Below, in pieces: positions 10,009-45,933 of a stretch of DNA of 54,235 nucleotides. The stretch is from a virus. The notes beneath the pieces are model-generated. The model was not told where the DNA came from and searched no databases. It saw only the letters and a program-made list of their open reading frames with translations. The stretch spans positions 1 to 54,235 of the IMG/VR virus record IMGVR_UViG_3300044647_001141; one strand, written 5' to 3'. Both the position numbers and the translations under genes were made by a program. The number at the start of each line of letters is the position of its first letter. Within the stretch, counting starts at the first letter, position 1.

Positions 10009-11706
10009 TCATAAATTCTTTTGAGTATTCTCGTATTCTTCAATAGTCTTGAAGATGGCATATGGAATCTGAGGTACTACTGCATTCCCGTATGCCTTGA
10101 TGGATTCGTTTCGCCACTTTGACCAAGCGGAAACTGTCCTCCTCTCGACTTCCATAGCAACCAGTGCAATTTCATGTGACAAGTACGGCATAGTGTCTGC
10201 AAATTGTTCCTTGAATTGTTTTTCCAATTCTCGTCCTTGTGGTGTATTTGCAAATGTTCCGTACTCCCGCAGTTTTCGCAGTAGTGCCTCCGATGTTTCC
10301 TCGCTAAATGCAGATGTCCCTTTCTCGTCTGTATTGGAGGGCGAACATAACTGCAAGACTTTGAGCAGTATTGTCGGCTCATGTATCTTGTATAATCCTC
10401 CCAGATATTCCCGAATTTCCTCCGATTGAAGGATATCCCACACTTCCTGCAATTCTTGATCGGTGTATCTTTCAGTGATTGTGGCATATATTTCCGGCTT
10501 TATATGTCTAACCATCCAGTCGGAAACCCCATCATACTTTCCACAAATTGGGGATTGAGTTGGGAACTCTTCCCAGTCTGGGCGAATGCATCCGGAAGTG
10601 AATTTGTTTCCGTTCTGCCCGATGCTTCCAATGCCTCCGAAGATCTCGCCCCCTTGTAATCTCTCGTTGCCGGTGTCGGCAGCATCCCCATTGCCATTGC
10701 TCTGCTCAATGTCACCGAATGCATTGAACCTTCCTTGACTTGACTGCTCTTCATCTTCGCAGTCGCATTCGTTGAATCCATTGCGGTCGGAGTCGGCAGC
10801 ATTTGTAACCTTGCCATTTGCTTCAATGGCATTTGTAAATTCACCCCCTTCTCTGCCCATTTCTCCTTGTCTATCTCCCATTTTTCGGGTGTCCTGGCTG
10901 AGTTCCAATCGAAGGCGTTCGGGGTCGGGAGCAATCCCATTGTTGCATAATCGTTCAGACCAAATGTCCATCCTTGTGATATTTTCCGTTTCGTTCTGCC
11001 ATCCTCCATTTTGCTGCCATACTTCTCGTCCCTTGTTTGTGGTGTCGGCAGCATCCCCATACTTGCCATCCGACCTATGTTGAGAGAATGACTGCTCTTC
11101 CCATCCGTTGTCTTCCGTCTTCCGTTCTCGTTCATCTCGCAATCCGATTCCGGTTCCTGGGTTGTTGGTGTGGGCAACAAACCAAACTCTGTCTCTGCGG
11201 TGGACAGAGCCGACACCTGCAGCTGGAAGTACATACGATTGTACTTCGTACCCTTCAGCTTCCAGGTCAGCTTGCACCTCGTGGAATACCAGTCCTCCCG
11301 ACCAATTAATAAGGCCGAAAACGTTCTCTCCCACGACCCATGTTGGCTGAACTTCCCGAATGACTCTAAGCATTTCCGGCCAGAGATGTCGAGAGTCTTC
11401 CTTGCCGAGTCTTTTTCCGGCTGCGGAGTAGGGTTGGCAGGGAAATCCACCGGTGAGAATAATGTCATCTGTTCTCCAATTGTCCCCAAATCTTTTTGAG
11501 AGTTCATAGTTTAATTTTTCGTAGGTGAGTGTATGTATGTCATCATGGTGGTACGCATCAGGCCAATGATACTGCAAGACATTATTTCCAAATGGATTTA
11601 TTTCGCACGAGGCAATGTTTGTCCAACCCATCCATTCGGATGCCAGATCAAACCCTCCGATTCCACTAAATAGACTTATGTGAAGCATCTTCTTTACTTT
11701 TTTCAA
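10009..11706 (-). CDS. C5 cytosine-specific DNA methyltransferase with two nested reading frames
   Basis: A 565-residue protein that would transfer methyl from S-adenosylmethionine to cytosine C5. Motif I is FSGIGGF (13-19), motif IV GGFPCQPYS (86-94, nucleophile C90), motif VI GENV (126-129), motif VIII HRRDRVW (169-175) and motif X GNAVVPQ (540-546). The 364 residues between motifs VIII and X are far longer than usual, polar and Asn/Gly/Glu-rich with repeated DAADT-type segments. Residues about 67-402 and 407-543 are also read in a second frame as the LPTP-repeat and HNH proteins. The frame has to be continuous because motif X lies after both. An ATG at 11688 is an alternative start. The product may shield phage DNA from restriction. 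Confidence 0.85.
   Translation of the reverse strand: MKKVKKMLHISLFSGIGGFDLASEWMGWTNIASCEINPFGNNVLQYHWPDAYHHDDIHTLTYEKLNYELSKRFGDNWRTDDIILTGGFPCQPYSAAGKRLGKEDSRHLWPEMLRVIREVQPTWVVGENVFGLINWSGGLVFHEVQADLEAEGYEVQSYVLPAAGVGSVHRRDRVWFVAHTNNPGTGIGLRDERERKTEDNGWEEQSFSQHRSDGKYGDAADTTNKGREVWQQNGGWQNETENITRMDIWSERLCNNGIAPDPERLRLELSQDTRKMGDRQGEMGREGGEFTNAIEANGKVTNAADSDRNGFNECDCEDEEQSSQGRFNAFGDIEQSNGNGDAADTGNERLQGGEIFGGIGSIGQNGNKFTSGCIRPDWEEFPTQSPICGKYDGVSDWMVRHIKPEIYATITERYTDQELQEVWDILQSEEIREYLGGLYKIHEPTILLKVLQLCSPSNTDEKGTSAFSEETSEALLRKLREYGTFANTPQGRELEKQFKEQFADTMPYLSHEIALVAMEVERRTVSAWSKWRNESIKAYGNAVVPQIPYAIFKTIEEYENTQKNL
10077..10487 (-). CDS. HNH endonuclease nested in the methyltransferase gene
   Basis: A 136-residue HNH nuclease in the same frame as the LPTP protein and offset from the methyltransferase. 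Zinc-type pairs are C13/C16, C41/C45, C70/C73 and C100/C103. The catalytic core is 'LQIHHKDENWKNN' (H82, H83, N87, N90) followed by 'NLQTLCRTCHMKLHW' (H104, H108), the standard HNH layout. Such proteins cut DNA as homing enzymes, restriction enzymes or packaging partners. The ATG at 10485-10487 follows the LPTP stop by 12 bases. The C-terminus ends inside the codons for methyltransferase motif X. A match this specific cannot be explained as a shadow frame. Confidence 0.8.
   Translation of the reverse strand: MPQSLKDTPIKNCRKCGISFNRRKFGNIWEDYTRYMSRQYCSKSCSYVRPPIQTRKGHLHLARKHRRHYCENCGSTEHLQIHHKDENWKNNSRNNLQTLCRTCHMKLHWLLWKSRGGQFPLGQSGETNPSRHTGMQ
10500..11507 (-). CDS. LPTP-repeat phage protein overprinted on the methyltransferase gene
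   Basis: A 335-residue protein in another frame of the same strand as the methyltransferase. It starts at ATG 11505-11507 after an A+T-rich leader. The N-terminal part has 'LDISGRKCLESFGKF', 'WERTFSALL', 'LTWKLKGT' and 'MYFQLQVS'. Five LPTP motifs follow at residues 111, 153, 193, 237 and 276, 39-44 residues apart. The end is 'QLNPQFVESMMGFPTGW'. I recognise this architecture from many phage and prophage proteins of unknown role ('SGRKC...LTWK...LLPTP...LNPxFVExMMGFPxGW'), so the frame is very unlikely to be accidental. Its stop lies 12 bases before the nested HNH gene. Confidence 0.7.
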   Translation of the reverse strand: MNSQKDLGTIGEQMTLFSPVDFPANPTPQPEKDSARKTLDISGRKCLESFGKFSQHGSWERTFSALLIGREDWYSTRCKLTWKLKGTKYNRMYFQLQVSALSTAETEFGLLPTPTTQEPESDCEMNENGRRKTTDGKSSHSLNIGRMASMGMLPTPQTRDEKYGSKMEDGRTKRKISQGWTFGLNDYATMGLLPTPNAFDWNSARTPEKWEIDKEKWAEKGVNLQMPLKQMARLQMLPTPTAMDSTNATAKMKSSQVKEGSMHSVTLSRAMAMGMLPTPATRDYKGARSSEALEASGRTETNSLPDAFAQTGKSSQLNPQFVESMMGFPTGWLDI

Positions 11707-12034
11707 CTGTTATGTCATCGCCGGCAATGATGCAATCGATGATCGTCTCGACTACCTCTCGCTCTTTCGGACTCAGCTTGGCGATCTTCTCCTGTATCGC
11801 CAGTGTGGTGAAGACATCCGACTCCCATTCTGCCCGTATGCCGTCTCGTATCACCTGGGGGAAAAGGGGGTATGTAATGATGTCGCCATAAATCCATTCC
11901 AATTTTGCGCAGTACTGCTTCATCAACCTTGCGCCAATGGTTCCCGGGTTCTCTCGTTGGAAAGAACCAAAATGCTCATACGCCTGTCTGACGGAATGGA
12001 TGGCGTTTACCAGATCTGATGCTCCTGATTTCAC
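11666..12034 (-). CDS. Hypothetical helical protein upstream of the methyltransferase
   Basis: A 122-residue protein starting at GTG 12032-12034, overlapping the previous stop (ATGTGA), and running 41 bases into the methyltransferase start. It is helical with a Trp/Tyr-rich centre (YCAKLEWIYGDIITYPLF, DGIRAEWESDVFTTLAI) and an acidic end (KSKEDASHKSI). No catalytic motif or domain is recognised. Tight overlaps on both sides indicate co-translation with the replication protein and the methyltransferase. Confidence 0.6.
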   Translation of the reverse strand: MKSGASDLVNAIHSVRQAYEHFGSFQRENPGTIGARLMKQYCAKLEWIYGDIITYPLFPQVIRDGIRAEWESDVFTTLAIQEKIAKLSPKEREVVETIIDCIIAGDDITVEKSKEDASHKSI

Positions 12035-12714
12035 ATTACGAATTTTCGTTCTTCAATTTTTGGCACAACCTTGAGGCTGCCCGGTCGGGTTCCCTGGCGG
12101 ATGTTCGGGAACCAATACCCCTTTGCATACGCCTTCCAGTCCATGATCTTTCTGCCGTTCTTGTCCACCCATCCGATGGCGGAATTCTTGTTGTAGAATA
12201 GTTCCGCCTGCTTGAGATCCTTGCCGTTTTCAAGGAAGTATGCCTTTACTTCTTCTTCCTCAGGCGCTAAAAAATTGTCTTTGCCTGTGTGTGTGTGTTC
12301 TGTATTTGTATTATGTATTACTGTATTAGTGTATTCTGTATTTGAAATGGAGGTTTTCCGCTGCGGATTATCCGTTGCGGATTTACCGCTGCGGATTATC
12401 CGTTGCGGAAAATCGCTATCGGTTAAGGGGGTAGGGTAGGCCCTAATGGAATATTCGAAAGTTCCGGCTGCGGTTTTATGGCAAATACATTCAGCGTAAC
12501 CCTTCTTTTCAAGTTCACTAAAGGCGGATGTAACGGCGGAATACCCGTCTTTGCAGTAGGACGTTAAGTCCTTTTTCCGGATGACGGTATGATCTTGGAG
12601 TAGAAGCATAATCTGAAGCAAGGACTTGGCCTTTAGGCTGATCCTGTTGTCAAAGGCGATATTCTTCAGAATGGTGATGTCCATCTTGGGACTTCTTTGG
12701 TCGCTTCCAAGCAT
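12031..12714 (-). CDS. Winged-helix replication initiator-like protein (phage O/DnaD-like)
   Basis: A protein of 227 residues from the ATG at 12712-12714; an ATG at 12684 (MDITIL) is also possible, while the longest open frame runs back through the promoter and is unlikely. Residues about 12-80 form a helix-turn-helix (ILKNIAFDNRISLKAKSLLQ, VIRKKDLTSYCKDGYSAVTS, ELEKKGYAEC) followed by a beta wing (GTFEYSIRAY). A Ser/Thr/Asn-rich linker of about 70 residues leads to a C-terminal 'AELFYNKNSAIGWVDKNG' and 'DWKAYAKGYW' region, the ending often seen in Bacteroidota replication proteins. It probably binds the origin and loads the helicase encoded at 52219. It is transcribed divergently from the portal. 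Confidence 0.65.
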   Translation of the reverse strand: MLGSDQRSPKMDITILKNIAFDNRISLKAKSLLQIMLLLQDHTVIRKKDLTSYCKDGYSAVTSAFSELEKKGYAECICHKTAAGTFEYSIRAYPTPLTDSDFPQRIIRSGKSATDNPQRKTSISNTEYTNTVIHNTNTEHTHTGKDNFLAPEEEEVKAYFLENGKDLKQAELFYNKNSAIGWVDKNGRKIMDWKAYAKGYWFPNIRQGTRPGSLKVVPKIEERKFVM

Positions 12715-12816
12715 TGGAAATAAAAACCCCGTTAGGACTTCAGGGCCGACACCCATCCGCCCAAACGGGGCCAAAATCAGTTCAGATACCGTGTCGGCGG
12801 TTCTACAACACAAACA

Positions 12817-12839
12817 TACGTATAAAAAGCGTAAATTTG
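12817..12839 (+). promoter_or_regulatory. Promoter of the portal operon with inverted-repeat operator
   Basis: TAAATTTG at 12832-12839 matches the Bacteroidota -7 box. Directly upstream TACGT-N7-GCGTA (12817-12833) is an imperfect copy of the inverted repeat at four other promoters. The portal GTG start is 18 bases downstream. The region also separates the divergent replication and portal genes, so one regulator could act on both. Confidence 0.5.
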
Positions 12840-12857
12840 ACAAAATTTAATTTTGCC

Positions 12858-31183: not shown

Positions 31184-34100
31184 ATGGCAATACGTAGAAT
31201 GCTCACCGGCAAAATGGATCTCGAGACGTCGCCCTACATGGTGGCGCAGGGAGACTATACGTATGCCAAGAACATTTCATCGACCGTAACGGACGGCACC
31301 ATCAAGCCTGTCCAGGGCAACCGCATAGTGAACTATGTCCTTCCGTCCGGGACCAACAAGGTCATAGGCTTCAAGGAGGATGTGACACGGGAGCGGGCAT
31401 TCTATTTCGTGCATAACTCAACGGGCAAGCATTCCATTCTGATCTTCAACAAGGTCAGCCGGAGCGTTCAGAAGCTCATAGAGAACCTGACAGATAGCGG
31501 CGGAGTCGATATCCTGAAGTTCAGTGCGGACAAGAAGATCCTGCATGTCGACATCCTCTACCGGGAGACCGCAGAGGGCGACATCCTCTCATGGACCTGC
31601 AACAACGCCTCTCCCAGGGAGGTCATCATCAACAAGCTGCTCAACAACGAATACGGCGTGGTCCTTGAGGAGTACCTTGAGGCGGCAAAGCGGCCGCCCC
31701 TCGGATGCCCGTCATGTACCTACATCAATGACCCCTTGCGAACGGTCAACTCCCTGCGCAAGAAACTTTTCCAGTTCAAGTACCGCTGGGTGTATGATGA
31801 CTTTTCAAAGTCGACATGGGGTCCAATCTCAAAAATCCCGATGCCGACGGGCCTGTTCACTTCCGCCGATCTTGACAACGACCCGACGAAGAACAACGCC
31901 ATCGACATCACCTTGAGTACCGGCAACAAAAAGGTCAAGCGCATAGAGGTTGCGGCACGCATTTCACTGGGCAGCTCATGGTCGGATTTCTTTCTGATCG
32001 ATTCCATTGAGAAGGCTGCGATAGCACTTGGCGACAACCTTGAATACGTATACCGGTTCTACAATGATGCCGTCTATCCGTATGCCGATGTCACGGAGAG
32101 CAACCTGCTGCATGACTGGGTGCCGAGATACGCCCAGGCACAATGCCTTGCCAACGGCAACGTGAAGGTATACGGCAACATCACCGAAGGATACGACAGG
32201 GTAGCGGGCCTCAATATATCAGTGACCTCTTCCACAGTCACCAACAGCAGCTCCTCTGCGGAGCCTCCGTCGGCAAGGTGGGTGGGCAGTAATTTCACCA
32301 CGGGATATGTTGAGATCCTTGGTACTCCGATCCCTGGAACAAGGTATCAGGTCTTGTGGCGAGCCTCAAACCTTGTCGGCCCTACTACGTTCATGGATTA
32401 CAGGGCAGTGGCCGGCGATACCAACAACAGCGTCGCAACGGCTCTCGCAGCATCCGCCATTGTTGCCATGCGGGCAACGGCATCGGCCAACAGGGTGAAC
32501 CTGAGTTTCATCAACCAGGAGGTGTTCTTCCAGGTATATGTTTACCCCGGCACCATTGCATCGTCATACAGCTATGAGTCGACATGGAACTGGTGGAGCA
32601 GGTATCTCATAGGCGTGGTGTACTTCGATGAGCAGGGTAGGACCAATGGGGCGCATATCGACAGGACATCAACCAGGACAAATTCCGATGTGATAACATC
32701 CGGATACGCCATCTCCTCCAATGTCGGACTGACGCCGATACTCAATGTGAGCATCAACCACGCAGCACCATCATGGGCCAGGAAGTATCAGCTTGTCAGA
32801 AGCCGGAACATGGCGATAGGAGACTTCCTTTTCTGGAGGTCAAATCTTGTCATCACCGATTCGCAGTACTACTATTTCAGCGTCCAGACACTTTACGATA
32901 AGCGGGATGCGCAGTCATCCTATGTGCCGAACTGGGACTTTGCAGAAGGAGACAGGGTGCGCATTGCCATCGCCAATGTCGGCGGCACTCAGACATACCC
33001 CGGCACCGACTACCTTGTAGTGGGTGTTGAGGAACTGGATCTTGCCGCCAACCCCGGAAAGAAAAAGTACGTCAAGGTCAAGAAGCCATCAACCTCTGCG
33101 CCGACATACACGGGTGATACGCTCCTGCAGCTGTGGCGGCCTGCCGTCACCGGTGGCCAGGTGGAGAACGAGGTGTTCTACGAGTTCGGTGAAGTCTACG
33201 ACCTTTATGAGTCCGGTGGTGTCAGATACCACAAGGGAACATCTCAGGATCAGACGGCGGCCCAACCGGCCAACATCACGCTCTACAACGGAGATGTGTA
33301 TTACAGGTCGAGGACATTCAGTTCCAATGACGCCCTGTGGGTCATGGACAACCATTATTCAGACGACTTCACCTCCCGCGTCAACGCCAACGGACGGGGA
33401 CAGGCGATAGACTTCAATGCACGGGAGACGGTATATCAGACCCTTGTTAGGTTTGGCGGAACGTATCAGAGCGGCACATCGATTAATGACATCAACCGGT
33501 TCTACTTCGATGACCTCGATGAGTACGACCGGCAGTTCGGCAGCATCCAGCGACTGAGGATCAACGACCGCTACATGCGTGTCTTCCAGGAACTGAAATG
33601 CGGAAGGGTTCCGGTGTATCAGCAGGTCATCAAAGACTCCGTGGGCGGCGATGTCATGGCGCAGAGCAACAAGCTTCTCAACAACATCCAGTACTATGCC
33701 GGCGAGTTCGGCATCGGCAAACATCCGGAGTCGCTGGCCTCCAACAATTTTGCGGACTATTTCGTGGATACGAACAGGGGAGCGGTGGTACGCCTGTCGC
33801 TTGACGGCCTTTCACCTATATCCGTTCTGCACAGTGCAAACAATTACTTCGTAACCGAACTCTCAGCAAGGCGAGAGACGAACTTCATCTACGGCGTGTT
33901 CGATGCGGCGGAGAACCGATACATCCTATCAATGGAAGCCGTGGGCGACCGCAGGGCCGTCACGATAGCCTTCAACGAGCAGAACAAGGGATTCGAGTCC
34001 TTCTATGATTATTTACCCGAATTCATGGGCAACCTTGGAACGCTCATGCTCACCTTCAAGCTGGGTGCGCTGTGGACGCATGACAGTCCGACCTACTGCA

Positions 34101-34456
34101 ATTTCTTTGGTGTGCAGTATAAACCCCTTGTCAGGGTTGCCTTCAACGATGCGCCGATGGTCAAAAAGACCTTTCAGGCGGTATCGCTCATTTCAGGTGC
34201 CAAGTGGTACATACCGGCTATTACCACAAGCATCGGCAAGGCAAGCCGTGTTCCGGCGTCGTACTTCATCAAGCGCGAGGATGGCTATCATGCACCGCTG
34301 TTAAGAGACCAGGGGAGCAATGGCGGACTACTGAGCGGGTCGACACTCAAGGGGAACTATATCCTCGTGGACTTCGAGAAAGAGAACGGCAGCACCGGTG
34401 AGGAGTTGCAGTATGTCGAGATCAAATATTCAGTTTCAAACTTAAACGCACGATAA
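31184..34456 (+). CDS. Tail-nozzle/stabilisation protein (T7 gp12-like)
   Basis: A 1090-residue beta-rich protein. The N-terminus 'MDLETSPYMVAQGDYTYAKN' and 'GTIKPVQGNRIVNY' resembles tail tubular protein B and the stabilisation proteins of crAss-like phages, which begin 'G.Y..A.NI....-GN..V'. Strand-rich segments run throughout, with no coiled coil or membrane segment. A fibronectin-like or carbohydrate-type insertion cannot be excluded in the centre (residues about 340-450). Size and position after the adaptor fit the hexameric nozzle of a short tail. Its presence is the main evidence for podovirus morphology. The end overlaps the next gene (TAATG). Confidence 0.7.
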   Translation: MAIRRMLTGKMDLETSPYMVAQGDYTYAKNISSTVTDGTIKPVQGNRIVNYVLPSGTNKVIGFKEDVTRERAFYFVHNSTGKHSILIFNKVSRSVQKLIENLTDSGGVDILKFSADKKILHVDILYRETAEGDILSWTCNNASPREVIINKLLNNEYGVVLEEYLEAAKRPPLGCPSCTYINDPLRTVNSLRKKLFQFKYRWVYDDFSKSTWGPISKIPMPTGLFTSADLDNDPTKNNAIDITLSTGNKKVKRIEVAARISLGSSWSDFFLIDSIEKAAIALGDNLEYVYRFYNDAVYPYADVTESNLLHDWVPRYAQAQCLANGNVKVYGNITEGYDRVAGLNISVTSSTVTNSSSSAEPPSARWVGSNFTTGYVEILGTPIPGTRYQVLWRASNLVGPTTFMDYRAVAGDTNNSVATALAASAIVAMRATASANRVNLSFINQEVFFQVYVYPGTIASSYSYESTWNWWSRYLIGVVYFDEQGRTNGAHIDRTSTRTNSDVITSGYAISSNVGLTPILNVSINHAAPSWARKYQLVRSRNMAIGDFLFWRSNLVITDSQYYYFSVQTLYDKRDAQSSYVPNWDFAEGDRVRIAIANVGGTQTYPGTDYLVVGVEELDLAANPGKKKYVKVKKPSTSAPTYTGDTLLQLWRPAVTGGQVENEVFYEFGEVYDLYESGGVRYHKGTSQDQTAAQPANITLYNGDVYYRSRTFSSNDALWVMDNHYSDDFTSRVNANGRGQAIDFNARETVYQTLVRFGGTYQSGTSINDINRFYFDDLDEYDRQFGSIQRLRINDRYMRVFQELKCGRVPVYQQVIKDSVGGDVMAQSNKLLNNIQYYAGEFGIGKHPESLASNNFADYFVDTNRGAVVRLSLDGLSPISVLHSANNYFVTELSARRETNFIYGVFDAAENRYILSMEAVGDRRAVTIAFNEQNKGFESFYDYLPEFMGNLGTLMLTFKLGALWTHDSPTYCNFFGVQYKPLVRVAFNDAPMVKKTFQAVSLISGAKWYIPAITTSIGKASRVPASYFIKREDGYHAPLLRDQGSNGGLLSGSTLKGNYILVDFEKENGSTGEELQYVEIKYSVSNLNAR

Positions 34457-36711: not shown

Positions 36712-39700
36712 ATGGATGAAGAACAACTGAAGTATCTGTTCGACAAATACGGAACAAAGGGCGGATTCCCAAGTTTTGATGCTTTCAAGTCCTTGATGTC
36801 GGATGGAGAAAGTCGAAAGGTGTTCTTTGATCGTAGAAATGCCGAGATGAAGTTCCCGGACTTTAACGAATTCGAGAGGATTCTTGGAGTTCGGCAGCAA
36901 CAACAAGTAGCTGCCGGAAATTTGCCGGCGTCTACTCCAACAGATCCGACTATCCAGGTAGCAAACCAAGCAATGCCTGGCATGCAGCAAATACCGGGAC
37001 AAGAACTTTTAAAACTCACAAAGGACTATGTCAAGTCCCTTGATCAGAGCGGGCAGCCTGGCAGCCAGTCTATACCAAGCCAAATGGGTGCGAACAGCAG
37101 TGCGCCTGGTTTTATCCCTTCATTGCCATCTGCGCCCGTAGTGTCCAATCAGAAGACATCATATGATTATAGCAATGAATTGAATTCTCTTGGATACAAA
37201 CCCGAGAAGATTGCAGCACTCCTTGGCGACTTGCCGGACAATACGCCAGACTACACTGTAAACGAACTCCTGTCGCTTACCGATCCCATTGATATAAAAC
37301 GCAAAAAGGCGGCAACCATATGGCAGGCCAATGTCAATGACTATATCGAGCGGATCGAGGATCCGGTCAAGAAGCAACAGGCTTCCGAACTATTTGCAAC
37401 AGCGTTGCAAAAATATGAGAACGCACCTTCTTATGAAGATGCCATTAATGGCATAAGGGCATATGCGCTTCCGCTCATAAATTCATACGAGGGTAGTGCA
37501 GACATCTCCGAGATGCGCAACGCATTGCGTATTGATGCTGAGTACGGCATTGCAAAGTCCATGCTCAAAGATCCCAAGTCATTCACCAAGTACCAGGGCA
37601 TAGGACTCAATCCCTTGCAGGGCCTTGCACTTGATGTCACCCTTCTGTTCGACCCAAAGGGGGAGGAGATAAAAAGGCAGATAACCGACAAGTACACGGA
37701 TCCGGATGCCATCGCCATGCAGCAGGTAAAACTTGCACAACTTGAAAACGAGGGTCTCAGGATACTCGGCAATGAGGTTGGCCGCATGCTTGGCAAACTA
37801 TCAAAGGGAGTTATCCAGTCCAATGATTTCTACGAGCAGAACAAAGGCAGGATTGATGCCCTTGTTACTACCATCAAGTCGGACGATAGCGTACCGGAGC
37901 AGATTAAGGCTTCCGCTGAAGCGTACAAAAAAGAGTATGACGCCATCGTGTCCGGGACAAGCGACGGGGCGTTCACGAGTCCTTATGATTTTGCGGTACT
38001 CAAAGAAAAGATAGACAACAAGACCATCTCCGGGGCAGAAGTAAAAGACTACAATAAAAGGGTTATTCAGATAAAGGAGCTGAACAGCAAGTATGCTGAC
38101 ATATTTGGGCAGTTCAATAGTGTCATCGACCAAAGAAACGAGGCCGTCAGGGAATACGGCAGCCTGGTTGACAAGCTGGACAAGATGTCAGAGGGTAGTG
38201 AAGACTACAAGCAGCTTCAGTCGTGGATGAACTACATCAATGACCAAAGGAATACGCTCATAGACAGGTATCCGGCCTATGGCTCCGACTATGTGCATCA
38301 ACTTATTCAAGAGCAAACCGGCGCATATACCGGAACGATGGACAGGGCGTACATGACCTTTGTCGACAATGCGGGCGTAGAGGCAACGCAGCTCGTCAAG
38401 AAGGTTGTCAATAATTTCATGGGGATCTGGATGGGCGACAAGTATGTGCGCGAGGTCGAGATGTCGGATGCCCGAAAAAGAATGGTGGACGACCTGACTT
38501 TCAACTATCAGACCGGAAGTCAGATGATGTTTGATGAGCGGACTATGGTCCCGGTCATGGAAAAAAAATACCAGCAGCGCATTGATGAAGTAAAGGCCAG
38601 GGGGTACTCAAAGAGAGAGGAGCAAGCGGCACTCTACCCAATCATTGATGAGGCGGTAAGGAACGGGGGCGTTCAGTACGTCTATAATCCGAACAAGGGT
38701 AAATATAACTTCACAGCGGCCTCGATTGGAAATGCCGTAGCAACCGTGGTGCCGCAATTCCTCGGCCAAATGGCACAGACGGCCTACCTCGGCGGCTTTG
38801 GGAATATAGGCAAGGTGCGCAGGATGGCCACACTGGGCGCATCCGTATTTGCCAATACATTCCCAAGGGCCTATGACAATGCCGTACAGATGGGCATCAG
38901 CCATCCGGGTCAGTATGCAACGGCACAGTCATTGGTTGAGGTGGCCTCTGAAAGTATGTTCGACAACATCAAGATGATCAAAAGCGTAGTGCCTCAGATC
39001 AGGCAGATGTTCTCCGGATTGTCCAATGGGGAATGGAAGATGATTGTTAGCGGAGTGGCAAAAAAGAATTTCAGTGGCGAGGCTGCCAAGGTGTTGATGG
39101 ATTACGGCAAGGAGTCGGTGATTGAAGAAGGTGCGGCGAATATAATGGGCAACGTCTCCGACAAGTATGTATTCAACATCGACAAGAAATGGAATGAGGG
39201 ACTGAAGCAGACCCTTTCCACCAGTGTTGTAGGAATGCTTCCGCTTGCAGCGATCGGCATACCGCTTCGCATGCGCAGTGCCAATATCGTCAACAAGATG
39301 AATATCTATGAGGCTGCCGCGCGTTCCGAGCAAGTCATCTCGGATATAAACAGCCAGGTGTCGGAGGGCAGGATGAGTTTCGATGAGGCACAAAAGCACA
39401 TCAAGGCCATCAAGCTCATGAGCGATGTCATCCATACCATGCCGACCACCAATGCCATTGGTAAACCATTGACCGACGGCCAGAAGGCCAAATACGCATG
39501 GAACGAGTATGTCATCCGGCTCGCGAAGATAGATGAGAGCAATGCCCCTACCACCGTCGTAAGGGAGATAGCAGACAGGGTCAATGAGGCCGACAAGGAG
39601 AATGCCGACATCCTAAATGACGATGACATCAAGACATTCACCGAACTGTCCTTGCAGGGCGAGAACCCGGTAGCCGCTCAGAGCCAGCCTGTCATTGAAT

Positions 39701-42700
39701 TCCTGCACAAAACCATTGTGGATAATGTTGCAGATCTTGACATCAACGATGAGGATGCCGGATTGATTGCAGACATGGTCAAGCGTGGGGAGTCGATGAT
39801 GGACATCGTTGACGAGGCCAAGTACCTCTACCAGGAGGATCCGCAAAGGGCCTACAAGATACTTGGGCCGCGCATCTATGATGCCATCAGACTCAATATG
39901 GTTGAGTCTATCCGGGGCAAAAAGGATGCCGTGGCGCAACCTGGTCAAGAGGACAAGGGGCAGGGTGCAGCAGGGACATTTGTACAGATGCCGGCAAGTG
40001 AAGATGAAATACCGGGCCTGGTCGTCACCGTAAAAAGACCGAAGCCGTCCGCGCCTGTTGAAACGCAGAAACCTTTTGTCTCATTACCGCAGGAAAATAC
40101 TCAGGAGCTTACAACAAAAGGCAATATTGCAATCATCCCCCCAACACAAAACGATGGCAAAGGGCAAGAAGAAGGGCGGCAAGAAAATGTGCTGACCCAA
40201 GACAATCAAGCATCCAATCAGCAGGGGCAGGGTTCTAAACCTGCTCCTGCAATCAGTGTCCAGATGCCGGGCATGACACCCGAAACGAATGTCGTGACCA
40301 TTGCAGGACGTCAGGAACCCGCGACTGGTGCGCAGCCTGCTGCCACCGCGCCCTCTCAGCAGGAGGCCGGGCAGGTTAAGGAGGATGCGGCAAGGTTAGG
40401 AAAGGCGGACTTTGTCAATAAATTCAACAACGATCTATCCATATACCCCAAGCTGTCAACCGACGAGGGGCGTGACAAGAAGCTCACGGCGATGATGAAC
40501 AGGCTGATAGCAGCCAAGAATGAGGGCCTGCTGTCATTCGATGAGTTCAATAGCCTGTATGACCGGATCCTGGAGAAGCGTGTCGCCCTATCCGCAAAGA
40601 ACCCCAAGTTCAAGGCAGAGACCAACAAGGCCATGAAAGAGGCGGAGAAAATGGCACAAATGGATAGCGAATCACCCGTAACTTCACCCAAACCAAAAAT
40701 AGTTAGTGATGCAGCAGAAAACGACAAGCTCACAGAAAAACTCACAGAAGAAGATAACACTGAGCAAGAACCAAGTGTCGCGGCTGTTGAAGGCAAAGCA
40801 GAAAGCGATAGCAAAGCTGAACTCAATGCAGCAGTCCGACAAGCAGACGAACTGATCAATGCCGCCACGGATGTGCAGGTTGTTCCGTTGAGCAGCCTAC
40901 ACACCGATGAGAAGCGGTTTCAGAATAGAACAAAACTTGTACAGGAAACCCTGAACAATATTATAAACAAGTGGAATGATGCGACCCAGGATCCAATCCA
41001 TGTTTGGCGCGATCCAAAGGACGGCAAATTGTATGTTCTTAGCGGGCATCACAGGTATTACGGCGCCAAGGGGGCAAACAGGAAAACGGTAAAAATCATT
41101 GATAGAACCAATGACTTTACCGAAGAGCAAGCCATTGAATTCGCAAAAGATGAGGCAAACTCTAATCGCAATATGGACACTTTGCTCGATAAGGCAAAGC
41201 GTTTAAGAGAGTTGATAAAAGGCCGTGCTACCAAGGAAAAAATCAATGACTACCTAAGTACCGAAGGCAAGAATAAAACCTTCATTCAGAATCTTGCGTC
41301 CCTAAACCCTGCAGGAAAGACGATAGGCAACCTTTTAAAGTTTGAAGATGCTCCTGACCGGCAAACACAAAAAGAAAATGAGCAACGAGCTGATTGGATA
41401 GGTGAGGCGCGTCGAACAATTAACGGTTTGACAGATACGCATGAAGACGAATTGTTTAATTTCCTGTATGACAAAAATGCGTCAAAGCGTATCACGACAA
41501 AGAATGATTTTCTACAAAAGGTAAGGTCGGTAGTCAATCCAATGCTGCCGGACCAGCCACTTAATATCGCCAGGTTCAAGTTCAAGACACAGGGCGAGGC
41601 GGCATATGACGAGGAGGTTGCCAACAAGAAAGCCGAGATACTTGATCGACAGGATCAGATCAATGCGCTCAATGACAGGTTCAACAATCCGCAGAACCCC
41701 AACTACATCTCCACCGAGAGCAGAGACTACGAAAGCGCAAGGCGCATAGCGGATGAAAAGATAGCCAAACTGGATGCCGAGCGCAAGGCGCTGCAAAAGC
41801 AGCTGGAGGACATTTACCGCAATAAAGGAAAGTTCACCGGAGCGCCCACCACTGGATCCTTGTTCGACGTCTTTGAGCCTACGCCAACCTATTCGGAGAG
41901 TGCGCAAAAACTTGCTGACGGATTTAGGTCACTGAAGTCGGGTGGAGATAAGCTGCTTGGTGGCCTTGGCATCTTTGTTGGCATCTGGGATGGCATGATG
42001 GAAACCATCGCCACACTCATCGAGGCCGGTGGATCACTGGCTGACGCCATTACAGCCGGCGTGGAATACGCACGTGCCAACATGCAGGGGGAGAAATACA
42101 CCGACAAGGAGATCGAAGCATCACTTCGCCAGGTACTCATCGATAACGGTATCATGGCCGCCCCGACAAGGCGCAGGCAGATGGCCGACAACATCAAGGC
42201 GGCAAACAATGACTTCAAGGGAGAAGGCGGCAAGCGGTCATTCACGCCGGGTGAGCGGATGTCATTCCGGGAAATGTTCAGCAAGATCAATTTTGCGCAG
42301 AGGAAAACCGCCGGCATCATCGAGGATATATTGCAGGAAGCAAAGAAGTATTTCCGAGAGAACGGGATTGACCTCACCAAAGGCAGAGTGGCAAAACTCA
42401 TCAATCAATTATCACATTTAGCAACAATGCCGAATGTGGATGCGTGGGTGGCTGATGCGCTTGACATTGCCGAAGCAATAGACAACATTATCATTGAGCA
42501 GAAAAATGCGAATGACATCAAGGCGTATAACGAAACGCTCAAGAAGTTTCAAAAGTTCAGGCGCAAGTCAAAGACACTGAACGCATCGTATCAGGCGTTG
42601 CTCGCCACTATTGATCTGCTGTCTCCAACGAAAATTATTCGTGCCGGGATGACCAACCAGGCAAACCCTGGATTCCCGAATATCGATACCGTTAGGAATA

Positions 42701-45700
42701 TCCGCGATATGCTTGAATTGGTTATGCAGGAGTACGGAACCAAGCAGGGCGTAAGGAAAATGGATCAGGTATTGATGGAGAACCTTGCCAAATTTATTGG
42801 TGACATAAAGGCTGAGATTGCAAGAGACGAGTCCGAGCGTGACATGGCAAAGTACCAGGCGAGCGTAAGTGCCGGATCATTCACGGGGACATACGATGAA
42901 TGGGTAGAGTATCAGCAGGATCTCAGGGACGCAAAGGAACTCAATGCCAAGCAGGCAAAGAGCGCCAAGAACGATGTTCCGCTTGACAAATTAAAGGCGC
43001 TCATAGATATACAGCGCGAACGCCTTATAGACTATCTGAAGGATCTCGATGCTATGTATGCCGGAGACCCCGGTAATCCGGACTACAAGAACAAGCGGAA
43101 CATTGCAAGGACACTGCTGACGCTCGACACTTCAATAATGAAGGCCGAGGACATCAACGACCTAAACATCCTGCTGAACAATATCGTACTTGACGGAAAC
43201 ATCATGGGTGCGGGCAGGTTCATCGCGTATCATACCGCACTGAACAAGAGGCTGTCACTTAAAAACAATCCGATACGCATTCGCTATGCGAAATACAAGA
43301 AGGCGAAGACCATTGGAGCATTGTTTGCCGGTCTTACTTATAGCGAGAATGATGCTGCAAAATTCAGGGAAAAGATATGGCTTGATTTCCAGCAAAAAGT
43401 AAACAAGGTTCAGCGCATATTCCATGACAAGAACGGGGTGCAGGAGCAGGTACAAAAAATCATAGCAAAGTTCAGGGATCCTCAGATGTCCAATATCCGT
43501 GTAGGCGTATTTCAATTCCTCAACCAGTCAACAGAATCGCCCGAATCAAAACCGGGAGCCGGAGATGCCATCAGTGCCGAGACGGATTTCAGAAGCAGGC
43601 TCAACAACATGGTGCAGGGTGCAGTACAAAGGCTGTTCAAGGAGGGAAAAGACAACGAGAGCGCAGGCAAGAGGTCACACTACATGATGGACGAAGCATT
43701 GCGTACGCTTGAGGCATTGCAGTCTATGGGCCTTGTCTCTCAATGGAAGATAGATAACACCGCCGGAAAGCAAGTGCTGCTTGACCAGCTCAATCGAGGC
43801 GTGATCAGCAGGGAGCAGTACAATGAACGTCTTGCCAACCTCAAACTATACATTGAGGATGTCCAGTTTACTGACAAGGTCGTAAATATGACCGATGCTT
43901 CTCAGATGCTTGATGACCTAAAGAGGCAACTTGTGCAAACCGAACTTGAATTGTACAATTACATTGCCGACAAGTTCAGCAATCCGGAACATCTTGCACA
44001 GATGCGCCATGTATCGGAAAGCCTGTATGGTATTCCATTCGATGGACGCAAGAACTATGCCCCTCAGATACCGATATCATTCAAGAGCAGCAACCTGACC
44101 GGTGCTGCACAAATCGAGGAGATTGGTAACGGAAATTTTGGTGGCGGTGGCGGAAGGCACAAGGTAAGCTCAAGGCCATCGGATCGTTTTCAGATGCGCA
44201 CCAGGCTGGCGGATCCGAACAACTTCTATTATTCAATGGATGCCACCAACAACTTCATGTCGGCGTACTTCGAGTCCAACATGGCAGTGGAGGCGGGCAT
44301 GACATTGAAGACACTATCATACCTCATAAATTCAAACGAGTTCCGGGATTTCATCAACGGCGTGTACAATGAATCCATATATGGTTTTGAGGACAGGTTC
44401 GAGGTGATCAAGAACAAGTCACGCGGTGAGGCATCTCAGTACGATCAGGTACTGTCAAGGCTTGCCGATGTCATAAGGGATCGTGTACAGGCGCCCTATC
44501 TGTACAAGGACTTCAGGGGTTTTGGTATCAGGCTACTGCAATGGGGCATGTCCGGCATGACAAAGACGATACTGAACAACACCACGCAAATCGTTAAGCA
44601 AATCGTGCCGAACCTTGGGGCGGGCATGCTTGTATCCGGTCCGAAGTCCACGGCGGCGGCGATTCGTGTGTTCACCGAAGCCATGTTCGACAGGGCAAAG
44701 CATGACGCACTGATGGAGTTCATGAACAACTTTGAGGCGGACTTCCGCTCGACAATGGGTGAGGAGTATCTGGACAAGATGAACAAGATGTTCAGCGAAT
44801 ACGAGAAGTCCTATGAGTTCCTGCTGAAGGCGTCGGAGATAAAGGATAAGTACACGCCTGCAAGGATTGGTGAATGGGCGATGAAGAAGTCTGACCGGGC
44901 AGCCTATATGATCAACGCACTGACGGCCTACATCGACTACGAGGTAAACCAGGGGAACCTCAAGACGCCTGGAGACTTTGATATCACAAAGGTTGGAGCC
45001 GCTGACAGGCTATCTGTTGCCCATGCGCTCAACATTACCGAGATGCTGAATAACTCATCTGTTGCAGCTGAACGCGCACCATACACCAGGGTGCAGCAGA
45101 TAGATGCCGATATAAATGACCAAATATTCAAAAACCTTATGTTCCTAAAGGGTTTCTCCCTGAACGCCGCCATGCAGTTCCAAAACAACTGGAGCATATT
45201 CATAACAAAGGAAGGGAAAATCAGCAACGATGAGCGCATGGATGCTGCTAAAAAGGCAATGTCATACTTCACACAGATCCTCATATTTAACGCATCAAAG
45301 GTGGCGCTTGGATATTATCTGATGGATCCCGTGGGCAGAATGCTTACGGAACTCATTTTTGGCATAGCGCCCCAAGAGGATAGCGATGAGGAAAAAAAGA
45401 AGAAAGCTCAGAAGGTGCGCACAAAATTCATAATGAACGCCATTGCGGACGCATTTGTAGGATGGATGCCAACGCCCATAGAAGGTCTGGCTAAAGTGGC
45501 AGGTAATGAAGCATACAACGTATATGCGAACATTGCTGCCGGCGGTGAGGAGCAGCGAAAGAAAGACAGCAAGACAACGCTAAAGGGTACTGCCTTGGAG
45601 ACAAGGTACAAGCCATATTACATCGGATCATCCGCCAACCTGGGTGCCGCCGATCTGTACTTCGGATTGTTTGACACCTTTGTTGAAGCCTTCAAGGAGC

Positions 45701-45933
45701 GCAGCAACAAGGAGATGACACCGGAAGCCAACGCCGCACTTGACCAGATGGACAAGGTAAAGCTGGCCACCTGGATGCTTGGACAAGGCGACTTGCTGAA
45801 CATGGAATACGCAATGGAGAGGGCCATCAGGGATGCCGGCACCAAGTCCAATAACAAGCCGGAGATCCGCAGGGCGAGTCCAAGAATGCGGCGTGCTGTA
45901 AATGCACTCAGCGGAAGAGCAAGAGGGCTGTGA
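36712..45933 (+). CDS. 3073-residue polyvalent virion protein with ParB-like domain
   Basis: The largest gene in the window, about one sixth of it. Residues 1-65 hold two short similar modules (GGFPSFDAFKSLMSD and MKFPDFNEFERILGV). After a low-complexity linker and helical regions come several hydrophobic segments (near residues 675-720 and 840-860, and a C-terminal group after about 2610). Residues about 1384-1490 form a ParB/Srx-like domain: QVVPLSSLHTDEKRFQNR, then LYVLSGHHRYYGAKG with the GHHR core at about 1445. A C-terminal half of helices resembles large polyvalent-protein-associated domains. Such polyvalent proteins are packaged and injected with the DNA. ParB-like domains in them can act as nucleases. 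Length without breaks argues for strong selection. Confidence 0.75.
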   Translation: MDEEQLKYLFDKYGTKGGFPSFDAFKSLMSDGESRKVFFDRRNAEMKFPDFNEFERILGVRQQQQVAAGNLPASTPTDPTIQVANQAMPGMQQIPGQELLKLTKDYVKSLDQSGQPGSQSIPSQMGANSSAPGFIPSLPSAPVVSNQKTSYDYSNELNSLGYKPEKIAALLGDLPDNTPDYTVNELLSLTDPIDIKRKKAATIWQANVNDYIERIEDPVKKQQASELFATALQKYENAPSYEDAINGIRAYALPLINSYEGSADISEMRNALRIDAEYGIAKSMLKDPKSFTKYQGIGLNPLQGLALDVTLLFDPKGEEIKRQITDKYTDPDAIAMQQVKLAQLENEGLRILGNEVGRMLGKLSKGVIQSNDFYEQNKGRIDALVTTIKSDDSVPEQIKASAEAYKKEYDAIVSGTSDGAFTSPYDFAVLKEKIDNKTISGAEVKDYNKRVIQIKELNSKYADIFGQFNSVIDQRNEAVREYGSLVDKLDKMSEGSEDYKQLQSWMNYINDQRNTLIDRYPAYGSDYVHQLIQEQTGAYTGTMDRAYMTFVDNAGVEATQLVKKVVNNFMGIWMGDKYVREVEMSDARKRMVDDLTFNYQTGSQMMFDERTMVPVMEKKYQQRIDEVKARGYSKREEQAALYPIIDEAVRNGGVQYVYNPNKGKYNFTAASIGNAVATVVPQFLGQMAQTAYLGGFGNIGKVRRMATLGASVFANTFPRAYDNAVQMGISHPGQYATAQSLVEVASESMFDNIKMIKSVVPQIRQMFSGLSNGEWKMIVSGVAKKNFSGEAAKVLMDYGKESVIEEGAANIMGNVSDKYVFNIDKKWNEGLKQTLSTSVVGMLPLAAIGIPLRMRSANIVNKMNIYEAAARSEQVISDINSQVSEGRMSFDEAQKHIKAIKLMSDVIHTMPTTNAIGKPLTDGQKAKYAWNEYVIRLAKIDESNAPTTVVREIADRVNEADKENADILNDDDIKTFTELSLQGENPVAAQSQPVIEFLHKTIVDNVADLDINDEDAGLIADMVKRGESMMDIVDEAKYLYQEDPQRAYKILGPRIYDAIRLNMVESIRGKKDAVAQPGQEDKGQGAAGTFVQMPASEDEIPGLVVTVKRPKPSAPVETQKPFVSLPQENTQELTTKGNIAIIPPTQNDGKGQEEGRQENVLTQDNQASNQQGQGSKPAPAISVQMPGMTPETNVVTIAGRQEPATGAQPAATAPSQQEAGQVKEDAARLGKADFVNKFNNDLSIYPKLSTDEGRDKKLTAMMNRLIAAKNEGLLSFDEFNSLYDRILEKRVALSAKNPKFKAETNKAMKEAEKMAQMDSESPVTSPKPKIVSDAAENDKLTEKLTEEDNTEQEPSVAAVEGKAESDSKAELNAAVRQADELINAATDVQVVPLSSLHTDEKRFQNRTKLVQETLNNIINKWNDATQDPIHVWRDPKDGKLYVLSGHHRYYGAKGANRKTVKIIDRTNDFTEEQAIEFAKDEANSNRNMDTLLDKAKRLRELIKGRATKEKINDYLSTEGKNKTFIQNLASLNPAGKTIGNLLKFEDAPDRQTQKENEQRADWIGEARRTINGLTDTHEDELFNFLYDKNASKRITTKNDFLQKVRSVVNPMLPDQPLNIARFKFKTQGEAAYDEEVANKKAEILDRQDQINALNDRFNNPQNPNYISTESRDYESARRIADEKIAKLDAERKALQKQLEDIYRNKGKFTGAPTTGSLFDVFEPTPTYSESAQKLADGFRSLKSGGDKLLGGLGIFVGIWDGMMETIATLIEAGGSLADAITAGVEYARANMQGEKYTDKEIEASLRQVLIDNGIMAAPTRRRQMADNIKAANNDFKGEGGKRSFTPGERMSFREMFSKINFAQRKTAGIIEDILQEAKKYFRENGIDLTKGRVAKLINQLSHLATMPNVDAWVADALDIAEAIDNIIIEQKNANDIKAYNETLKKFQKFRRKSKTLNASYQALLATIDLLSPTKIIRAGMTNQANPGFPNIDTVRNIRDMLELVMQEYGTKQGVRKMDQVLMENLAKFIGDIKAEIARDESERDMAKYQASVSAGSFTGTYDEWVEYQQDLRDAKELNAKQAKSAKNDVPLDKLKALIDIQRERLIDYLKDLDAMYAGDPGNPDYKNKRNIARTLLTLDTSIMKAEDINDLNILLNNIVLDGNIMGAGRFIAYHTALNKRLSLKNNPIRIRYAKYKKAKTIGALFAGLTYSENDAAKFREKIWLDFQQKVNKVQRIFHDKNGVQEQVQKIIAKFRDPQMSNIRVGVFQFLNQSTESPESKPGAGDAISAETDFRSRLNNMVQGAVQRLFKEGKDNESAGKRSHYMMDEALRTLEALQSMGLVSQWKIDNTAGKQVLLDQLNRGVISREQYNERLANLKLYIEDVQFTDKVVNMTDASQMLDDLKRQLVQTELELYNYIADKFSNPEHLAQMRHVSESLYGIPFDGRKNYAPQIPISFKSSNLTGAAQIEEIGNGNFGGGGGRHKVSSRPSDRFQMRTRLADPNNFYYSMDATNNFMSAYFESNMAVEAGMTLKTLSYLINSNEFRDFINGVYNESIYGFEDRFEVIKNKSRGEASQYDQVLSRLADVIRDRVQAPYLYKDFRGFGIRLLQWGMSGMTKTILNNTTQIVKQIVPNLGAGMLVSGPKSTAAAIRVFTEAMFDRAKHDALMEFMNNFEADFRSTMGEEYLDKMNKMFSEYEKSYEFLLKASEIKDKYTPARIGEWAMKKSDRAAYMINALTAYIDYEVNQGNLKTPGDFDITKVGAADRLSVAHALNITEMLNNSSVAAERAPYTRVQQIDADINDQIFKNLMFLKGFSLNAAMQFQNNWSIFITKEGKISNDERMDAAKKAMSYFTQILIFNASKVALGYYLMDPVGRMLTELIFGIAPQEDSDEEKKKKAQKVRTKFIMNAIADAFVGWMPTPIEGLAKVAGNEAYNVYANIAAGGEEQRKKDSKTTLKGTALETRYKPYYIGSSANLGAADLYFGLFDTFVEAFKERSNKEMTPEANAALDQMDKVKLATWMLGQGDLLNMEYAMERAIRDAGTKSNNKPEIRRASPRMRRAVNALSGRARGL

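Follow-up and report, generated by a model that had tools for sequence, protein, structure and literature searches.

Multispecific C5-cytosine methyltransferases of phages, such as those of B. subtilis phages, are single-chain enzymes that carry tandem recognition units of roughly 40 amino acids in a variable region. The C5-cytosine methyltransferase M.EcoHK31I consists of two chains, and Lee, Kam and Shaw reportedly found in 1995 that the gene for its small chain lies within that for the large chain, in a different reading frame. In a published overview, M.EcoHK31I (YGGCCR) is a two-chain enzyme that occurs naturally, its large chain bearing motifs I-VIII and X and its small chain motif IX (PMC3404938). 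Another type of hidden gene is the ShiLan domain, an out-of-frame HNH sequence that sits within an insertion into a phage DNA methylase and leaves the methylase frame open; no intron or intein signature was reported for these insertions, and their distribution is patchy (Arsenault, Gosselin and Gogarten, 2025; PMC11855218).

The locus analyzed here resides in a 54-kb virus record (54,235 nt; this entire stretch is referred to as the window) in which terminase, portal and integrase genes are present. We consider it likely that it encodes a two-chain C5-cytosine methyltransferase with nested chains (alpha and beta), probably serving to escape host restriction, together with a parasitic HNH endonuclease. 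The original prediction, made from the nucleotide sequence, had placed an LPTP-repeat protein and an HNH nuclease in a second frame covering 84% of a methyltransferase gene. All three open reading frames (ORFs) were confirmed, with beta and then HNH in the +1 frame of the alpha strand, together covering 1419 of the 1698 nt of alpha:

10009..11706, minus strand: alpha, C5-cytosine methyltransferase large subunit, 565 aa, motifs I-VIII and X, no motif IX; PF00145, 3.4e-35
10500..11507, minus strand: beta, putative nested target-recognition/motif IX subunit, 335 aa, +1 frame
10077..10487, minus strand: HNH endonuclease ORF, 136 aa, +1 frame; PF01844, 4e-5; phrog_1271, 2e-12
11666..12034, minus strand: upstream ORF without a family match, overlapping the alpha start
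12031..12843, minus strand: upstream replication-initiation-like gene; phrog_4707, 7e-12

The start codon of alpha is either TTG (11706) or ATG (11688), the latter being the likelier one. The HNH motif is intact, as had been predicted, and the LPTP-repeat protein, said to belong to a known phage family, matches phrog_1008 at 7e-36. Elsewhere in the window, positions 31184-34456 encode a large virion protein whose C-terminal domain is of the crAss-like muzzle type, and this gene is followed by an ORF of 3073 aa (36712-45933).

Alpha has the features of a C5-cytosine DNA methyltransferase: it matches Pfam PF00145 (3e-35), TIGR00675 (2e-32) and M.HhaI in the PDB (9e-13), and its translation contains motifs I, IV, VI, VIII and X in the one frame from 11706 to 10009, as had been predicted. 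The list of motifs behind that prediction overlooked a gap, namely motif IX, which is absent from alpha and is found in beta:

11647..11673, minus strand: alpha motif I (LFSGIGGFD), from translation, (nearly) invariant across 43 alpha proteins
11434..11442, minus strand: alpha motif IV, catalytic PCQ, from translation, invariant across 43 alpha proteins
11320..11328, minus strand: alpha motif VI (ENV), from translation, invariant across 43 alpha proteins
11173..11202, minus strand: alpha motif VIII (HRRDRVWFVA), from translation, conserved across 43 alpha proteins
10069..10089, minus strand: alpha motif X (GNAVVPQ), from translation, conserved across 43 alpha proteins
10512..10559, minus strand: beta motif IX (LNPQFVESMMGFPTGW), at the C-terminal end of beta, core absent from 150/150 distinct viral alpha proteins
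10560..11177, minus strand: beta repeat region with five (L/M)LPTP units that are proposed to be tandem target-recognition units; passenger stretch of alpha

Among distinct viral loci, the motif IX core follows the catalytic PCQ in none of 150 alpha proteins and is present in 147 of 150 beta proteins; its presence in beta is partly conditioned by the search, whose pattern included motif IX for some loci, while its absence from alpha is free of such conditioning. A loose motif IX pattern was matched by one of 80 bacterial alpha proteins. Since beta supplies the motif that alpha lacks, the two chains most likely make up a single enzyme, with beta as its recognition/motif IX subunit. The joint function proposed earlier for all three proteins can be narrowed accordingly: alpha and beta would share it, whereas HNH is most likely a mobile insert and not a third working part.

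Across the two frames, motif IX of beta and motif X of alpha are separated by 71 nt in the majority of viral loci and by 41 nt in 58 of the bacterial ones, about the spacing seen in the single-chain enzymes examined; in the relative L040, both motifs even lie in one beta-frame ORF, alpha stops after motif VIII, and the IX-X stretch of beta matches the methyltransferase family phrog_363 (1.3e-7). Both observations would also suit a single fused enzyme produced by programmed frameshifting, with ribosomes leaving the alpha frame for that of beta ahead of the recognition region and returning ahead of motif X. We regard such a product as improbable, since two opposite shifts would be needed and the stop-free state of the alpha passenger stretch would have no reason. 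Moreover, the start of beta near motif IV is conserved in position (usually 65 or 68 nt ahead of PCQ) and is an ATG in 95 of 96 loci, and about 100 N-terminal codons of beta over motifs IV-VIII are under selection (NN/NS 0.63), which would be pointless for a shift past motif VIII.

Beta alone has no recognizable fold: it lacks a match in Pfam, sequence comparison with the PDB found nothing, and its AlphaFold2 model (pLDDT 60) found nothing in the PDB with Foldseek. Because of this low score and the empty Foldseek result, a fold resembling the methyltransferase small domain stays putative. These negative results would also fit a beta that acts outside the enzyme, as an accessory or regulatory protein of its own whose gene is overprinted on that of the methyltransferase; we give this reading a similarly small probability, as motif IX is missing from alpha and is carried by beta at a nearly fixed distance to motif X, and as no locus in which beta was found lacks alpha, except for a possible extra copy in L225. 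The latter, a second beta-like ORF on a Paenibacillus bovis plasmid (L225:2465-2929), extends mostly past the end of alpha and is a possible non-nested beta. Joining alpha and beta segments in silico changed the Pfam score from 133 to 153 bits for L096 and from 148 to 138 bits for L005. All 89 beta proteins tested match phrog_1008 ('DNA methyltransferase'); judged by these matches, phrog_1008 is the nested beta family, and its label is misleading because beta is devoid of the catalytic motifs.

We then asked which frame is under selection, using independent close pairs and classifying each change in both frames; this was a simple count (kappa 2, no multiple-hit correction), so that the NN/NS and NN/SN ratios are approximate and the argument rests on their contrast with control regions. 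Substitutions at alpha codon positions 1, 2 and 3 were distributed 20:10:70 upstream of beta, 27:13:61 over motifs IV-VIII, which the N-terminal part of beta overlaps, 47:28:25 in the target region and 14:8:78 downstream of beta. The corresponding NN/SN ratios of alpha were 0.17, 0.19, 1.58 and 0.11, and NN/NS of the beta frame was 1.23 and 1.17 in the non-overlapping controls and 0.63 (motifs IV-VIII) and 0.51 in the overlap. Because these ratios differ between overlap and control regions, selection can be assigned region by region: both frames are selected over motifs IV-VIII, beta only in the target region, and alpha only outside beta. AlphaFold2 models alpha confidently only at residues 1-180 and about 545-565, with low scores over roughly 200-540 (pLDDT about 30-55 across the stretch overlapping the beta repeat region); in the target region, alpha is a passenger that contains no stop and is probably disordered.

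When synonymous codons of alpha were shuffled, the open length of beta was reached in 3 of 5000 trials, and when beta or HNH was kept and its synonymous codons were shuffled, the alpha frame was open in 0 of 20000 trials each. In the target region of 95 relatives, no alpha-frame stop was observed as opposed to 506 expected. Together with the substitution pattern, these shuffles and counts rule out a chance open frame. We assign a negligible probability to the view that the second frame merely results from codon bias and that alpha is the sole genuine gene: the +1 frame of alpha is fairly stop-poor (the longest open run averages 136 codons after shuffling), but selection on the beta frame is confined to the overlap, alpha is unconstrained in the target region, the beta start is conserved, and the family occurs in several phyla. 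Homologous loci do not keep just one frame open, nor is the second frame free of purifying selection; both frames are open in homologues, beta and HNH are both under purifying selection, and the claim that the alpha frame must stay open because motif X comes last is borne out.

Most beta proteins contain one to five LPTP-like units, spaced mostly 27-50 residues apart. Upstream of about position 11041, which lies within the repeat region, 2967 nt of the window are 99.93% identical to contig L096, and beyond this point the two sequences diverge sharply. As the near-identity ends so sharply there, this points to a recent exchange within the repeats at about 11041. Just past this joint (window:11041), the identity to L096 is about 74%. 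The LPTP units may be exchangeable recognition units; linkage clustering of the repeat units was too coarse to establish module types.

The HNH gene lies on an element that has a defined length and corresponding empty sites:

10128..10502, minus strand: inserted element carrying HNH, 375 nt, edges from alignment and uncertain by a few nt, absent in L096-L098
10164..10247, minus strand: HNH core (IHHKDENWKNN...LCRTCHMKLH), from alignment

Comparison with empty sites gives an insert length of exactly 375 nt for each of the window, L091 and L092, and the distance between motifs IX and X is 446 nt with it and 71 nt without. The HNH proteins of L091 and L092 are 71% and 61% identical to that of the window, and HNH is absent from the same site in the close relatives L096-L102, L014 and L139. 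Within the insert, beta acquires a new stop (directly after LDI), and the HNH start follows 12 nt downstream; the C-terminus of HNH (GETNPSRHTGMQ) is the displaced tail of beta, which reads GEMNPSKDMGMQ in L096. Of the 13 loci measured, 12 have the HNH ATG 0-12 nt after the beta stop, and L179 is the exception; since the two almost adjoin, HNH is probably translated by termination-reinitiation. Pooled NN/NS was 0.43 for HNH and 1.02 for the host frame, values slightly biased towards the HNH frame by aligning the proteins in that frame; in the window's own clade, the host frame is perhaps weakly selected (0.57-0.66).

Down to about 1e-12, every one of the closest relatives of HNH occupies the +1 frame of an ORF that continues through it, and almost all of these host ORFs are recognizable methyltransferases; most other, more distant relatives have no such open host frame. 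Hosts of a +1 HNH include the single-chain methyltransferases L094, L187 and L223 (from a Staphylococcus phage), and the alpha/beta/HNH triple is present in at least 13 loci besides the window and its near-copy L090, among them Komagataeibacter phage phiKX1 (L222) and a Sideroxydans genome (L231). Two further kinds of arrangement were seen. In two different phages (L201, L211), an HNH gene occupies the +1 frame of an in-frame DNA polymerase A insertion at about the same site, and in the inteins of the phage terminase genes L198, L311 and L312, an HNH-type ORF in the +1 frame takes the place of an in-frame endonuclease domain. The element of the window itself was considered as an intein and this was rejected, as alpha matched no intein family in Pfam up to E = 1.

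We conclude that HNH most likely represents a mobile endonuclease acquired by insertion, which would cleave DNA and home. Some restriction enzymes are HNH nucleases, and the position of the gene within a methyltransferase gene could likewise suggest that HNH is the partner nuclease of a three-gene restriction-modification unit. This we consider no likelier than the other two improbable readings: the same site is empty in the close relatives listed above, related HNH genes are placed likewise within single-chain methyltransferases, with more distant relatives in a DNA polymerase and an intein, and the published analogue acts as a mobile element (PMC11855218).

In the mechanism that we favor, alpha would contribute motifs I-VIII, which form the catalytic domain, as well as motif X, with a probably disordered stretch connecting the two, and beta, expressed from its own ATG in the +1 frame within alpha, would contribute the DNA-recognition part and motif IX. 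Both chains would assemble into an enzyme that methylates phage DNA with a specificity presumably residing in beta, probably as a protection against host restriction. The 375-nt HNH homing element would have lodged in beta directly past motif IX; because its length is a multiple of three and it contains no alpha-frame stop, alpha would read through it, while beta would end just past its last essential motif, so that both would be spared. HNH, starting 12 nt past the new beta stop, would be made by termination-reinitiation.

Nesting of beta inside alpha in the same register was found in each of the 266 loci tested. These comprise all 170 viral or phage loci, 150 of them distinct, and all 80 loci that a second scan found in bacterial genomes, both counted among the matches listed, and 16 of 16 distinct genes in the 12 matching genomes from a sample of 299 genomes of one phylum, which was searched with a profile that did not require nesting; the overlap counts represent profile matches among those listed, and the frequencies are rough. 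In 198 genomes of a second phylum, no match was found besides the genome at the center of the search, and the chromosomal prevalence therefore differs by phylum. Scanning genomes with the beta sequence of the window yielded no relative; a proteobacterial beta alignment used as the query did find relatives. The beta family is spread across several phyla, and named carriers include phages of Bacteroides, Paenibacillus and Lacticaseibacillus, plasmids, and the genomes of Yersinia, Pseudomonas and Brucella; the nested arrangement also occurs in two E. coli prophages and plasmid copies. In the Bacteroides plasmid locus L226, a stop interrupts alpha. The annotation of E. coli PT62 shows alpha alone, and RefSeq labels the nested methyltransferase of E. 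coli cS100a (L307:2971-4140) as a two-piece pseudogene, though both of its frames are open. A related methyltransferase (L006:336-2414) contains an intein-like insertion between PC and Q of motif IV, and its reading frame is interrupted.

In the open-licence literature, we found no paper on the generality of the nested beta, its frame-specific selection or the triple, an absence that is weak evidence. The HNH nesting as such is not wholly new, and we dropped this notion in view of the hidden HNH insertions in PMC11855218. Each part of the locus has a precedent; the triple nesting, the generality of beta and the dual-frame evidence appear to be new. In our judgement, the chances are evenly balanced that nested two-chain methyltransferases form a major overlooked class in phages and prophages, swapping recognition units in one frame while the other stays open, and that 'frame-transparent' HNH elements are general mobile genes of methyltransferases, polymerases and inteins that keep the host frame open without splicing. 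The nested beta is present in every homologous locus found in phages, plasmids and bacteria, yet it is unannotated, 'hypothetical', or called a methyltransferase or pseudogene, and enzymes of this type cloned as alpha alone would be expected to appear inactive. The locus represents a clear case of a long same-strand overlap in bacteria and phages, with selection measured for each frame and a simple reason for the persistence of each.

Set against the known systems, the repeat units of beta resemble those of the multispecific phage enzymes in length, a suggestive similarity, but those enzymes are single-chain. A small chain encoded within the large gene in another frame is found in the window and is reportedly a property of M.EcoHK31I as well. 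Compared by description, the window shares with M.EcoHK31I the division of motifs into I-VIII plus X on one chain and IX on the other, and it differs by its inserted HNH gene and by the location of target recognition: the published overview of M.EcoHK31I places the predicted recognition domain on the large chain (PMC3404938), whereas the corresponding alpha stretch of the window is unselected and predicted to be disordered, and beta holds the conserved repeats. M.AquI is a split C5 methyltransferase with motifs I-VIII on one chain and IX and X on the other (PMC3404938), and it is L040 that resembles this enzyme; the window, in contrast, keeps motif X on alpha and has nested genes. As in ShiLan, the HNH gene of the window lies off-frame in an insertion that leaves the host ORF open, with empty sites in close relatives. 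However, the ShiLan HNH uses the third frame, whereas that of the window and all relatives studied here uses the second (+1), and in the window it sits in a two-subunit enzyme past motif IX, with its start just past the beta stop; we found no mention of a nested subunit in the text of PMC11855218. This start position suggests translational coupling rather than the leaderless start proposed for ShiLan, and the junction of beta stop and HNH start thereby suggests how hidden HNH genes are translated, a point left open in the 2025 paper (PMC11855218). M.EcoHK31I and ShiLan, so far isolated curiosities, thus become instances of what looks like a rule.
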